DNA of 32,850 nucleotides from Moorena sp. SIO3I8 (GTDB taxonomy: Bacteria; Cyanobacteriota; Cyanobacteriia; Cyanobacteriales; Coleofasciculaceae), in the NCBI RefSeq assembly GCF_010692325.1, contig NZ_JAAHHW010000078.1:1-32850 (forward strand), in the 5' to 3' direction. This document shows positions 6,297 to 29,620 of this stretch, in pieces. The first letter of the stretch is position 1; every line of letters begins with the position of its first letter. Both the position numbers and the translations under genes were made by a program. A model generated the notes under the pieces. That model had not been told where the DNA came from and searched no databases. It was given only the letters and a program-made list of their open reading frames with translations.

Positions 6297-6335
6297 ATAG
6301 CTGTTCGCGTAGCGTGCGCGTAGCGCATTTGCTGA
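6297..6335. repeat. Copy of a GCGTAGCG-type interspersed micro-repeat
   Basis: In the 65-bp gap between the spike and PAAR genes there is a GC-rich unit reading TTCGCGTAGCGTGCGCGTAG followed by CGCATTTGCTGATTGC. Related units occur at about 16805-16822 and, disrupting tnpB, at 23384-23405. It belongs to a family of short palindrome-rich repeats dispersed through this window. Confidence 0.6.
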
Positions 6336-16473: not shown

Positions 16474-16481
16474 CTATAGCA

Positions 16482-16524
16482 GAAGTCAGAAGTCAGAAGT
16501 CAGAAGTCAGAAGTCAGAAGTCAG
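16482..16524. repeat. CAGAAGT heptamer tandem repeat
   Basis: About six CAGAAGT heptamers follow the LuxR-type gene and lead into a TGAGCTGATAGCTGACTGCTG stretch. It is a typical STRR and no terminator hairpin precedes it. Confidence 0.85.
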
Positions 16525-16571
16525 GTATGAGCTGATAGCTGACTGCTGACCCATGATATTGTATGGCACTG

Positions 16572-16794
16572 GATGCGATCGCGTAATCTGGTCGAGCACT
16601 CGATGCGATCGCATTATCTGGCCGAGCACTGGATGCGATCGCGTAATCTGGTCGAGCACTCGATGCGATCGCGTAATCTGGTCGAGCACTCGATGCGATC
16701 GCGTAATCTGGTCGAGCACTCGATGCGATCGCATTATCTTGTACGGGTATTGGATGCGATCGCATTATCTTGTACGGGTATTGGATGCGATGCG
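16572..16794. repeat. 30/31-bp tandem array carrying seven HIP1 palindromes
   Basis: Seven head-to-tail units start with GATGCGATCGC. Five 30-bp units (16572-16721) continue with GTAATCTGGTCGAGCACTC or close variants, and two 31-bp units (16722-16783) continue with ATTATCTTGTACGGGTATTG; a partial eighth follows. Every full unit contains the HIP1 octamer GCGATCGC. Most junctions also form the palindrome TCGAGCACTCGA. There are no unique spacers, so it is not a CRISPR. Several frames on both strands are open across it but the products are pure repeats. Confidence 0.95.
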
Positions 16795-17017
16795 TGAGCA
16801 TTGAGCCGCTACGCGAACGCATTTTATTCTAATGATGTAGACAGGCTTTTTAGTACTTTAACTCTTACCTACTCTATGCTCCCTAATTTTATATCATAAG
16901 CTCCCTTTTTATATCAGTAAATTTAAAAAAAATGTAAAATTAAATTACACATAAATGAGTCTATAAATGGCTAATTATAATAGTTGTAAATAAATTTAAA
17001 CATTATTCATTTAACCC

Positions 17018-17046
17018 TTGCATTTTTTCGAGGAGTTATCTATACT
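17018..17046 (+). promoter_or_regulatory. Strong candidate sigma-70-type promoter
   Basis: TTGCAT (17018-17023), a 17-base spacer and TATACT (17041-17046) form a near-consensus promoter. It precedes a hairpin leader and a small open frame. Transcription would start near 17053. Confidence 0.6.
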
Positions 17047-17071
17047 ATAGAAGGTGACGACCGATACTAAT

Positions 17072-17112
17072 AGCCGCGCTGGTCAGAACCGTTAATAACT
17101 ACCAGCGCGGCT
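17072..17112 (+). terminator. Leader hairpin, possible attenuator
   Basis: AGCCGCGCTGGT (17072-17083) and ACCAGCGCGGCT (17101-17112) form a perfect 12-bp stem around a 17-base loop, followed by TTTCCTCCC. The U-run is short, so it may act as an attenuator, a stability element or the end of a short RNA starting near 17053. Confidence 0.5.
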
Positions 17113-17144
17113 TTCCTCCCAACCAAGTAGGAGTTACTTCCATA

Positions 17145-17288
17145 ATGGCAGAAAAATCAAGATCATCAATCCCAGGATTTCAGCAACCCACCGGTGCTAA
17201 TGATGCTGGTTTGGTTAAGATTTGGAATTTTTTACTCTTTTGCGCTTGCTGCCTTACCCTGTCGAGGGCGCACTCTACAATATCGTAG
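17145..17288 (+). CDS. Small hypothetical protein, possibly a truncated gene
   Basis: A 47-codon frame starts MAEKSRSSIPGFQQPTGAND and ends in a hydrophobic, Cys-containing segment (WNFLLFCACCLTL, about 27-39). It has a TAGGAG ribosome-binding-like sequence 11 bases upstream and lies behind a good promoter and hairpin leader. The N-terminal half looks like real coding sequence; the end runs into DNA that is followed by a GATTAGCCCAAAGGGCTAGG micro-repeat at 17288-17307, so the frame may have been cut short. I do not recognise the family. Confidence 0.45.
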   Translation: MAEKSRSSIPGFQQPTGANDAGLVKIWNFLLFCACCLTLSRAHSTIS

Positions 17289-17433
17289 ATTAGCCCAAAG
17301 GGCTAGGCTTTGCGTAGGCACTAAAACCCAGAACAAAAGTACCTCATCTATTTGGGAAATGCTATACTATTAATTTATAGTAAATTTTGTTCAGCAATAA
17401 ATACTATCTTTAGTAAATAAATTGAAATCAAAA

Positions 17434-17625
17434 ATGAGTCGAGAATTTAATGTAATTATCGAGCGCGATGCTGATGGCTACTTTGTAGCTTCTGTTCCCA
17501 CTCTTAAAGGGTGTCATACCCAAGCAAAATCTTTGGATGAATTGATGGAGCGTATTCGAGAAGCGATTGGCCGTAGGCCACGCGGGGCGCGATCGCCCTT
17601 TGTTTGGAATTTGAATAAAATCTAG
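17434..17625 (+). CDS. hicB: HicB-family antitoxin with repeat-altered C-terminus
   Basis: Residues 1-44 (MSREFNVIIERDADGYFVAS, then VPTLKGCHTQAKSLDELMERIREAI) are a HicB-type antitoxin domain. The C-terminus is unusual: GRRPRGARSPFVWNLNKI replaces the expected end. A 26-bp segment (17568-17593) carrying a palindromic micro-repeat interrupts a HIP1 site; without it the frame reads REAIALCLEFE and stops at 17616-17618, which is exactly the usual HicB ending. The ATG at 17434 is preferred over the upstream TTG. The hicA gene follows 46 bp downstream. The antitoxin core is intact, so function may be kept despite the changed tail; the toxin gene is also intact. Confidence 0.88.
   Translation: MSREFNVIIERDADGYFVASVPTLKGCHTQAKSLDELMERIREAIGRRPRGARSPFVWNLNKI
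17563..17598. repeat. Micro-repeat inserted into a HIP1 site within hicB
   Basis: A 21-bp core (17568-17588; TGGCCGTAGGCCACGCGGGGC) is flanked by direct GCGAT repeats (17563-17567 and 17589-17593). The same core with the same flanks occurs at 17972-18002. Both sites restore a GCGATCGC octamer when the core and one GCGAT are removed. The core begins with the palindrome TGGCC-GTA-GGCCA. Confidence 0.9.
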
Positions 17626-17671
17626 AAAATTCCCTTGACTTCTTTGGTGTACAGCGAGGGGACGTGGAAGT

Positions 17672-17896
17672 ATGAGTCAATTCCCAAATGTAACTGGACG
17701 GGAAATTATCGCAGCACTGGAGAAAGCAGGGTTTACAGTGGCGAGGGTACGTGGAAGTAACCATATTTTAATTCATGATGACGGACGTAGAACAGTTATC
17801 CCGGTACATTCTGGTGAAACCATTGGACGTGGTTTATTGTCCCAAATCTTGCGTGACACTCAGCTTAGTCGTGAGGAATTCAGGGAATTGTTGTGA
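17672..17896 (+). CDS. hicA: HicA-family mRNA interferase toxin
   Basis: This 74-aa protein is a HicA/YcfA-type toxin with a double-stranded RNA-binding-like fold that cleaves mRNA. It has the family pattern TGREIIAALEKAGFTVARVRG, then SNHILIHDDGRRTVIPVHSG with the catalytic His of the SNH motif near residue 32, and GRGLLSQILRDTQLSREEF. Length and motifs are complete. It lies downstream of hicB in the antitoxin-first order common in cyanobacteria, presumably co-transcribed. An intact toxin next to an altered antitoxin is notable; either the antitoxin still works or other copies neutralise it. Confidence 0.95.
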   Translation: MSQFPNVTGREIIAALEKAGFTVARVRGSNHILIHDDGRRTVIPVHSGETIGRGLLSQILRDTQLSREEFRELL

Positions 17897-17921
17897 TGGC
17901 TGTGTCAGTCCACTACAAGAT

Positions 17922-18005
17922 CGGCGATTAGCCCAAAGGGCTAGGCTTCGCGATGCTCCGAGCCGCTAAAAGCGATTGGCCGTAGGCCACGCGGGGCGCG
18001 ATCGC
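17922..18005. repeat. Second micro-repeat cluster downstream of hicA
   Basis: The segment begins with GCGATTAGCCCAAAGGGCTA, which also occurs in near-identical form at about 17286-17310. It ends with a second exact copy of the hicB-interrupting unit (core 17977-17997, GCGAT flanks). Both are palindrome-containing and dispersed. Confidence 0.85.
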
Positions 18006-18034
18006 AAAAATTGAACGTATCTTGGGTAGGCTCC

Positions 18035-18640
18035 TCAATCCCAGATCTGATCCATCTTGAGCACAAACCCAGGTAAAACTGGCTCACCACTCACCGTCGC
18101 TGGATTATCCAGCTGTTCAACTTCCGCCCCAAGACGATAAGTATAAACTTGGCGCTGATCCGGGTCAATCAGCCAACCGAGCAAAGTCCCATTTGACCTA
18201 TACTCTGCCATTTTGTCTTGCAAGTTTTCCAGGCGATCACTCCCAGAACGCAGCTCAATCACAAAATCCGGGCATAGGGGTACAAACTTCTTTCGTTGTT
18301 CTTTAGTCACGGATTCCCACCTCTCTAGCTTGACCCAAGCAACATCAGGAGAACGATTGGCTCCATTGGGAAGTATAAAGCCAGTAGAAGAATCAAAACC
18401 TTTCCCTGTACCATCTTGGCATACCCAATTACCAAACTGAACAATCAAATCAAAATTGCGACCGCCAGTTTCCCCTCCTGTAGGAGTGCTAATAATAAGC
18501 CTTCCATCTTGGTGGCGTTCGATCCGTAACTCCCGATTGAGCTGACAAAAAGCAAAGAATTCCTCATCACTCATATCAAAAGCCGGACGAGTCTTGAGCT
18601 CTAAGGGCGTTGCTAGTTGTGGTGTGATCGATCCAGTCAT
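18035..18640 (-). CDS. Uma2-family (DUF820) PD-(D/E)XK nuclease-like protein
   Basis: This protein of about 201 residues belongs to the Uma2 family, which is strongly expanded in cyanobacteria and has a restriction-endonuclease-like fold. Visible motifs are FDMSDEEFFAFCQLNRELRIE near the N-terminus, NRSPDVAWV with the putative catalytic Asp, and PDFVIELRSGSDRLENLQDKM with the Glu and downstream Lys. The C-terminus has GWLIDPDQRQVYTYR. I chose the ATG at 18638-18640 (MTGSITP) because the upstream ATG at 18676 lies in a dispersed GGCATCTTGGTGGAACC tandem repeat. The biological role of Uma2 proteins is unclear; many are linked to mobile elements. Confidence 0.9.
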   Translation of the reverse strand: MTGSITPQLATPLELKTRPAFDMSDEEFFAFCQLNRELRIERHQDGRLIISTPTGGETGGRNFDLIVQFGNWVCQDGTGKGFDSSTGFILPNGANRSPDVAWVKLERWESVTKEQRKKFVPLCPDFVIELRSGSDRLENLQDKMAEYRSNGTLLGWLIDPDQRQVYTYRLGAEVEQLDNPATVSGEPVLPGFVLKMDQIWD

Positions 18641-18671
18641 AATTATCAGGCGCGATTTGCGTTCCGTAACG

Positions 18672-18720
18672 GGCATCTTGGTGGAACCGGCATCTTGGTG
18701 GAACCGGCATCTTGCCGGTT
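18672..18720. repeat. 17-bp tandem repeat GGCATCTTGGTGGAACC
   Basis: Two full 17-bp units (18672-18688 and 18689-18705) and a variant third unit ending CTTGCCGGTT form a short array upstream of the Uma2 gene. The 262-bp stretch to the next gene otherwise contains nothing identifiable. Confidence 0.85.
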
Positions 18721-22958: not shown

Positions 22959-24213
22959 TTATTCTTGACACTCCCCGGTCATTAGACGCGGGGATTCTTC
23001 ACTCAACGACCCAGCTTGCTGCTCCTGACCGGAATCAAGAACAGTAGAGGCTAGGTCTCCTGAAGCGTTCGGATCGATGATCCAGGTTCCGGTGTGCCCC
23101 ACCGTACCCAAGGCTCTCTTGAGGATATTGATTGCAGCGTTGTGGTCACGATCTAGTCTGCAACCACATTTGCAGACGTGAGTCCTAGTTGATAATGATT
23201 TCTTGACCACTTCGCCGCACTCAGAACAATTTTGACTTGTATAGGCAGGATTCACTGCGACTGTTACTCTTCCAAATTTCTTGCCAAAATGTTCCAACCA
23301 TTTCCTAAGTTGATACCAACCTGCATCGTTAATAGATTTAGATAGACAGTGGTTTTTAACCAAATTTTTGACTCTTAAATCTTGCCTTACGGCACGCTGC
23401 GCGAACGTAGGCGACCAGATCGTTAGACCGGATTACGCAACGTGCAAGTCTCTTTGCATGTTCTTCACGCTGTCTACTTATTTTAAGATGCTGCCTACCT
23501 AATCTATTGACGGCTTTTTTTCGGTTGGAGGAGCCTTTCTTTTTCCGGGAAACCCGGCGTTGATAAAATTTTAGGCGGTTTTCTCCCTTCCTATAGAATC
23601 GGGGATTGGGTTCGGTGTTCCCGTCAGAATCAGTATAAAAGTATTTCAACCCAACATCTAACCCGATAGTTGTTCTGGACGGCTCCAATTCTTCCTTGAT
23701 ATCAACCGAGACACAAAATTGGACGTAGTACCCATCAGCCCTCTTCACAATCCGAACCCGCTTGATTTGCTTTTTATCAAAGCGCCACAAATCCCACGTA
23801 CCTTTGAGTTTCAGCTTTCCGATTTCCTTTTTATCACTGAAAGTGATTGATTTTTTATCAGGGGATAATTTCCAACCTGACTGTTTGTACTCAACTGATC
23901 TACAGTGCTTTTGAAAGCGAGGAAAACCTTTCTTGCCAGGTACCTTTTTCTTGCAGTTTTCAAAGAAGCGAGAGATTGATGACCATGCTCTTTCAGCGGC
24001 GGCCTGTCGAGCAGTTGAGTTCAATTCATTAGCAAAAGGAAACTCTTTGGCAAGGATTTTGCAGTACTTGCTAAGGTCATATTTACCCGTTCCCTTATTG
24101 TCCATCCATAAACGAATGCAACTATTGCGGATAAATTTAACCGTCCTAATTGCCTCGTCTATAGCTTGATACTGGAGGGGTTTTCCGTATGCCTTGAACT
24201 CTATTATGATCAT
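22959..24213 (-). pseudogene. tnpB: tnpB RNA-guided nuclease gene, frameshifted by a 22-bp micro-repeat
   Basis: Two frames together encode one TnpB. The first (24213-23356) has the N-terminal OB/helical part and the RuvC-I motif TIGLDVGLKYFYTDSDG. The second (read from about 23363 to 22959) has the C-terminal zinc finger (CSEC, then CKCG) and the RuvC-III motif CRLDRDHNAAINILKRA. Between them a 22-bp insertion (23384-23405) changes the frame. Removing it restores DLVAYEDLRVKNLVKNH, including the RuvC-II Glu of the YEDL motif. The gene as read encodes no full nuclease. The insertion resembles the GCGTAGCG/TACGGC micro-repeat family dispersed through the window. Confidence 0.9.
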
Positions 24214-29471: not shown

Positions 29472-29620
29472 CATTAAGATTTCAGAGTGCGTCCCGAACG
29501 ATTCAGGTGCGCGCCCGTTCGCGCCCCGCGTCGGCGAAAGCCGATAGGTGCGACCCAAGGGCGCGAGCAATCCCTCGCGCCCTTGGAGGCGCGCACCTTG
29601 AGCGAATTTAATTCTTAATG
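29472..29620. repeat. MITE-like nested inverted repeat upstream of the STAS gene
   Basis: Outer ends CATTAAGA (29472-29479) and TCTTAATG (29613-29620) enclose arms AGGTGCGCGCC (29505-29515) and GGCGCGCACCT (29588-29598). Inside is a perfect 11-bp hairpin AAGGGCGCGAG / CTCGCGCCCTT (29557-29584). Related parts lie upstream of hemF at 31284-31327. There is no open frame of note within it. Confidence 0.75.

Follow-up and report, generated by a model that had tools for sequence, protein, structure and literature searches.

In the cyanobacterium Moorena sp. SIO3I8, the hicB antitoxin gene of a hicB-hicA pair is interrupted by 26 bp that recur elsewhere in the same stretch of DNA, which raises the question of what this sequence is, how it entered hicB, and what it did to the gene. 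An earlier note on the window (the whole stretch of 32,850 nucleotides analysed here) had taken it for a very small mobile repeat that targets HIP1 octamers, leaves a 5-bp GCGAT duplication, and created an altered antitoxin beside an intact toxin. Our analysis indicates that it is very probably an SDR5-like mobile micro-element, a hairpin unit inserted at GCGA^TCGC or GCGAT^CGC without a 5-bp duplication, of which one 26-nt copy frameshifted hicB.

The insertion in hicB

The hicB-like gene (positions 17434 to 17625, forward strand) encodes 63 amino acids, the last 18 of which come from the insert and the sequence beyond it, and its product matches the PF15919 profile with 26.9 bits, just under the cut-off of 27. 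Positions 17563 to 17596 consist of GCGAT, TGGCCGTAGGCCACGCGGGGCGCGAT (26 bp), and CGC. GCGAT (17563 to 17567) and CGC (17594 to 17596) are the left and right parts of a target of the very common 8-base motif HIP1, which is an empty octamer in the relative G002. Between them, likewise on the forward strand, lies the putative mobile unit (17568 to 17593, its left boundary possibly one base further left), with the hairpin TGGCC-GTA-GGCCA (17568 to 17580), CGC, the tail GGGGC, and the end GCGAT, which together with the CGC that follows re-forms HIP1.

The orthologous hicB of G002, whose product has 71 amino acids, carries an intact GCGATCGC and is exactly 26 bp shorter, and the hicB-hicA region is 90% identical between the window and G002. 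This matching empty, perfect octamer bears out the claim that 26 bp were inserted within a HIP1 octamer of hicB. A similarity search found no match to the hicAB part in G001 or G003, and the apparent gain, rather than loss, of the unit at hicB rests on G002 as the single empty relative. The HicB products were compared across 30 loci, from a search of 148 genomes of the order, 108 of which gave matches. The C-terminal motif F-[VI]-G-x-[QE] is kept in all 29 others, while the window copy alone ends in a foreign stretch that none of the 29 orthologues carries. As the earlier note had stated, excision of the 26 bp restores REAIALCLEFE and a stop. This is not the standard HicB ending, since the other products run on to the conserved motif and the stop results from a separate nonsense change (17616 to 17618, forward strand) that lies in the ancestral reading frame of hicB and is not in G002. 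The frameshift in the window and the usual C-terminus in its orthologues agree with the view that the end of HicB was rewritten, and the comparison supports the entry of a 26-nt unit into the HIP1 site of hicB, by which the HicB C-terminus was replaced.

The hicA toxin gene (17672 to 17896, forward strand) retains an open reading frame, and its product matches PF07927 with 68.5 bits, so that the HicA domain is present. At residue 30, the window has Asn, against His in all 28 of the other aligned homologues that have a residue at this position; one more has a gap. A passage in one account of HicA describes a catalytic histidine in beta-2 as needed for RNase activity (PMC7180214), and because residue 30 is otherwise invariant, we infer that it may correspond to that histidine. 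The substitution contradicts the description of the toxin as intact. The locus resembles type II HicAB toxin-antitoxin systems in its gene order (hicB-hicA) and family domains and is unlike them in that both partners are changed.

Compared with G002, the window differs at 5 of 129 sites in hicB before the insert (all synonymous), at 9 of 83 sites from the octamer to the start of hicA, at 6 of 55 sites in noncoding DNA upstream, and at 5 of 225 sites in hicA (four of them nonsynonymous). The rate of change after versus before the insert in hicB (P = 0.09, or P = 0.004 with hicA pooled) is suggestive only. Both hicB and hicA look decayed, as judged from one assembly in which base-calling error is possible. 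The C-terminal segment of hicB and hicA may have decayed after the frameshift, or decay of hicA may have come first.

Further units in the window

The 34-mer at 17563 to 17596 recurs, identical, at 17972 to 18005. The earlier note had reported this second exact copy in a HIP1 octamer; a HIP1-type context was indeed found, and a lone insertion was not, as two less perfect unit-like stretches, recognised by eye, precede it. On the forward strand, the group begins with GCGAT (17924 to 17928), followed by a stretch with a TAGCCC/GGGCTA hairpin, a nonstandard tail, and the end GCGAT (17929 to 17954) and a degenerate stretch of 22 nt that also ends in GCGAT (17955 to 17976), both missed by the script. 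The exact copy of the hicB unit (17977 to 18002), detected by the script scan, and CGC as the right part of the second target (18003 to 18005) complete the group, and the alignment with G002 resumes at 17998. The window lacks ∼13.9 kb that G002 has between hicA and the uma2 gene (window 17945 to 17998 compared with L259), and the edge of this extra DNA falls within the stacked units, as if recombination had passed through them. Both G001 and G002 have an empty HIP1 octamer by the uma2 gene. In G003, another, inversely oriented 26-nt unit precedes the matching right flank, and the left flank is unaligned.

Another 26-nt unit-like insert, GCGAT...GCGAACGC, with a weak 3-bp hairpin, is located at 16787 to 16820 (forward strand). 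Three further units lie outside HIP1, at 6304 to 6327 (reverse strand), 23383 to 23405 (forward strand), and 29518 to 29544 (reverse strand), and all have the end GCGAA. The window also contains a tandem array of period 30 (16566 to 16770; 6.8 copies) with seven HIP1 octamers and a perfect CAGAAGT heptamer array (16480 to 16524; 6.4 copies). A search of Rfam gave no match at an E value of ≤1 within positions 16500 to 18700.

A family of hairpin units

The 21-bp core, for which no occurrence is expected in shuffled windows, has 110 copies with up to 3 mismatches in the genome of Moorena sp. SIO3I8, and the reversed pattern has none. A fixed-gap pattern (GCGATT, 20 free bases, and GCGATCGC) gave 51 matches in four Moorena genomes (20, 6, 4, and 21 per genome) and 0 in the reversed control. 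These matches represent 16 distinct sequences, in 15 of which the standard stem was found by script; the sixteenth (6 matches) has a 4-bp GCCC/GGGC stem. Among the 100 of 130 matches listed for HIP1-embedded inserts of the SIO3I8 genome, 37 are 24 nt and 11 are 26 nt long, with 0 to 5 for each other length.

The units are built of a hairpin (a 4- to 6-bp stem, usually with a 3-nt loop), CGC, a tail of 3 or 5 nt (TAC, TTC, TGC, GGGGC, TAAAA, or CAAAG), and GCG followed by AT, AA, or TT, giving 24 or 26 nt. Stems vary widely, e.g., TGGCC/GGCCA, TGACC/GGTCA, ACTCC/GGAGT, TCTCT/AGAGA, TCGGC/GCCGA, and GCTCC/GGAGC. Across 57 distinct 24-nt units, a set whose SIO3I8 part was prefiltered for the hairpin, 275 of 285 stem cells pair, compared with a mean of 174 and a maximum of 203 after shuffling of the 3' arms. 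When the count is confined to the other genomes (32 units), 152 of 160 cells pair, compared with 112 (maximum, 127) in the shuffled sets. Units of other lengths, including four 21-nt units from genome G136 that have no hairpin by eye, lie outside this set. Folding of single units was no better than that of shuffled sequences (z scores of −0.95 and −0.01), and the case for the hairpin is therefore one of covariation.

Unit density per 0.4 Mb is 62 in G001, 24 in G002, and 56 in SIO3I8. In a sample of the phylum, the pattern GCGAT N9-17 CGCTACGCGATCGC is present in 16 of 292 genomes, one of which (G170) agrees with plasmid pn1 of Nostoc sp. UHCC 0926 in sequence and coordinates.

Empty and filled alleles

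Sites for comparison were all preselected as HIP1 type: 21 of 72 were skipped for repetitive flanks, 30 of the remaining 51 were taken, and 29 were queried. Regions were taken for the 20 sites that were spanned by a match from one or more relatives, giving 40 aligned regions from three sister genomes. An exact absence of 24 or 26 bp was found in 17 of the 40 comparisons (one with a degenerate octamer), the element was in place in 16 (some with an altered tail or end), an extra or nested unit was present in 2, and 5 were unclear. Orthologous empty sites, which the earlier note had proposed looking for, therefore exist in related genomes, with an exact empty allele at 10 of the 20 sites and a perfect GCGATCGC in one relative at 8 of these 10; sites 12 and 31 lie in multicopy sequences, where orthology is uncertain. 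Such pairs place the cut at GCGA^TCGC or GCGAT^CGC, with at most one shared base (T) ambiguous.

HIP1 as a context

A strict scan of 1.2 Mb of unselected DNA (0.4 Mb from each of three genomes, G001, G002, and SIO3I8) gave 142 units. Alone or stacked, 29 of these lie between GCGAT and CGC, while 13 have one of these sides and 100 have neither GCGAT on the left nor CGC on the right; the end TAC-GCGAA is found in 94. As the same DNA contains 546 HIP1 octamers, the HIP1-type context is far above chance, yet it is a minority context. Where a unit is in HIP1, its hairpin side always adjoins GCGAT. The exact core had 17 matches, 1 of which (L044, one exact 21-mer in Enterorhabdus, an unrelated bacterium) was omitted, and GCGAT is present on the left in 11 and absent in 5 of the 16 Moorena loci that remain. 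Entry at the HIP1 octamer of hicB is in keeping with a very small mobile repeat that targets HIP1, whereas these counts do not agree with HIP1 as its only target, and core copies lacking the GCGAT or HIP1 context, which the earlier note would have counted against its proposal, make up part of the set. A version of the unit starting with AGGCC (several of loci L017 to L038) is often found in GGGAGCAGGGA-type repeats rather than HIP1, and most of its copies end in GCGTTC.

Stacking and exchange of tails

Units also follow one another directly. An open-junction pattern (CGCTACGCGWW, 10 to 13 bases, CGCTACGCGWW) had 71 matches in four genomes, of which 69 have the junction GCGAT and the other 2, including one without a hairpin, have GCGAA; the last unit ended in GCGAA in 44 and in GCGAT in 27. 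In the unselected DNA, the end GCGAT was found in 6 of 6 units with another unit after them, compared with 16 of 136 without. Arrays may mix hairpins, as at locus L024, where four units of three types lie in a row; a looser case, L051, has a GCGTT junction.

Two readings fit this pattern. First, a unit that ends in GCGAT would rebuild HIP1 and so accept the next unit. Second, the unit would start with T and enter after GCGA, including in GCGA^ACG, and the junction GCGAT would then arise by construction. Site 33 favors entry after GCGA over the rebuilding of HIP1: a lone unit with the end GCGAACGC is present in G002, and the difference in G001 is a 24-nt unit placed after GCGA.

At the orthologous filled sites 41, 64, and 20, the 3' tail differs as a block. 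Block-wise differences in tails, e.g., GGGGCGCGTT versus TACGCGAA, were seen in L182, L195, L198, and L203 relative to SIO3I8 sites 41, 20, 64, and 4, respectively, with L203 and site 4 aligned on the right side only. We infer that the 3' tail differences at orthologous sites may reflect stacking followed by loss between hairpins. A more far-reaching reading, which we put forward as speculative and consider unlikely as a whole, is that units of 24 to 26 nt, recognised by shape and not by sequence, dock both at HIP1 octamers and at the 3' ends of other units, where they stack head to tail into mixed arrays without multibase duplication and where losses between stacked hairpins swap the 3' tails. 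In integrons, attC sites are recognised by folded shape while their sequence varies, and cassettes stack at one place. Shape recognition and stacking would be the points of likeness to Moorena, whose units are without cassettes, and the docking reading, if true, would make them a scaled-down counterpart of integron cassette arrays, well under the size of known mobile DNA.

Mechanism of insertion

The preferred reading is that the units are copied by way of a single-stranded, hairpin-shaped intermediate of RNA or DNA, which would enter at GCGA^T or GCGAT^C. In this Moorena lineage, the frame of hicB was shifted by the arrival of a single 26-nt unit, and members of the same family also occupy many non-HIP1 places and short stacked arrays.

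Insertion through RNA, by reverse transcription or directly, is a reasonable possibility, although we give it somewhat less than an even chance. The covarying hairpin would suit an RNA, and the original SDR authors reportedly favored RNA intermediates, but the present evidence does not tell RNA from single-stranded DNA.

Rather less likely is a REP-like element that travels as single-stranded DNA with the help of a RAYT- or IS200/IS605-type Y1 (HUH) transposase, with a hairpin next to a fixed cleavage pentamer and no target duplication. The architecture of the Moorena units would suit such an enzyme, with GCGAT on the left, a hairpin at its foot, and a motif resembling GCGAT where the unit itself ends, and the genome has 13 Y1_Tnp matches. 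Like RAYT-moved REPs and REPINs, the Moorena units are dispersed, high-copy-number hairpin repeats in the size range of ∼20 to 40 bp, and most copies are outside HIP1; the authors of a REPIN study suggest, in one passage, that their approach may help to explain SDRs (PMC3116915). However, a limited pattern scan of up to 1.5 kb on each side found no unit adjoining the Y1 gene at any of the 13 loci, although at one of them a unit lies toward the distal end of the scanned stretch; no gene that would mobilise the units was found. Moreover, most REPs are defined by GTAG or CGTC end tags, according to a statement in one source (PMC3733652), while the Moorena units end in GCGAT, GCGAA, or GCGTT.

Classical transposition that duplicates 5 bp of the target, GCGAT, would explain why GCGAT is found on each side of both window copies, which is how the earlier note had read them. 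At site 8, however, the empty allele is GCGATCGC and the filled allele is GCGAT...GCGTTCGC, with GCGAT on the left and GCGTT on the right. The end GCGTT is also found in 4 of 8 exact copies in the SIO3I8 genome and in copies outside HIP1. Given the empty octamer and the nonmatching right end at site 8, the 5-bp duplication is rejected, and classical transposition of this kind is highly improbable.

We give still less credence to repeats that are not mobile and have spread locally by microhomology or replication slippage; homogeneous arrays do occur, but single exact insertions are found at unlinked sites in coding genes that are empty in relatives, and different hairpins are mixed within arrays.

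Effects on interrupted genes

Where a relative has the empty allele, a single open reading frame spans the site; this holds for the genes of a beta-helix/SLH protein, a Na/H exchanger, a NACHT NTPase, a DUF4058 protein, and a DUF29 protein, all of which are frameshifted by 26-nt units in SIO3I8. A TPR gene with a 24-nt unit keeps its frame. The beta-helix/SLH gene (L256, on G000:C124) has two 26-nt units 587 bp apart with identical cores and different last bases and, relative to G002, also a 605-bp loss and one stop.

For the DUF4058 gene (site 13), pN/pS between three filled genomes and G002 is 0.60 to 0.75 after the unit and 0.07 to 0.12 before it, which indicates that constraint on the segment after the unit is lost and that the unit is not bypassed. 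In the NACHT gene (site 12), a frameshifting unit is present in SIO3I8 and G003, and the 391 codons downstream are stop free, with a pN/pS of 0.35 between the two. Restart of translation within the gene could account for this constraint, as could independent insertion, paralogy, or exchange of DNA among strains. The SIO3I8 copy of the NACHT gene contains a second insert of 23 bp (comparison of L258 and L242). That inserts are silent at the protein level through ribosome bypass or removal by RNA processing, as the stop-free NACHT codons might suggest, is barely credible in view of the DUF4058 values, the nonsense codon in hicB, and the changes after the insert in hicB, which are as frequent as in noncoding DNA and unlike those before the insert, and internal restart or uncertain orthology would account for NACHT.

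Relation to SDR5 and significance

SDR elements are 21 to 27 nt long, and the SDR5 of Nostoc, the subject of Elhai et al. (2008, Genome Research), is reportedly small, with a hairpin that shows compensatory changes. The Moorena units agree with this type in size, with peaks of 24 and 26 nt among HIP1-embedded inserts, and in their covarying hairpin, as seen in the units from other genomes only. To our knowledge, SDR5 is found exclusively within HIP1, which the Moorena units are not (29 of 142 between GCGAT and CGC; 5 of 16 exact-core loci without GCGAT), and they are for this reason filed as SDR5-like rather than as SDR5. According to a passage on SDR5, its point of insertion lies exactly between the third and fourth bases of HIP1 (PMC4390886). 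HIP1-embedded Moorena copies match this insertion point when read on one strand, since GCGAT^CGC is GCG^ATCGC on the other (GCGA^TCGC is also possible). In contrast to SDR5, Moorena has 26-nt forms (with GGGGC, TAAAA, and CAAAG tails), ends in AA or TT, stacked arrays, and many non-HIP1 copies. The units would accordingly be an SDR5-like variant and not SDR5 itself, a distinction drawn from the description of SDR5. Nostoc sp. UHCC 0926 and NIES-3756 plasmids have HIP1 units that share the tail CGCTACGCG with Moorena.

The units rank with the smallest mobile elements so far proposed, and they interrupt genes, including those for HicB, a NACHT NTPase, an S-layer-domain protein, and an exchanger. 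Moorena offers many pairs of empty and filled alleles in recognisable genes, an insertion point placed within one base, and nearly uniform stack junctions, which make the mechanism of insertion, and any role of HIP1 in it, testable.
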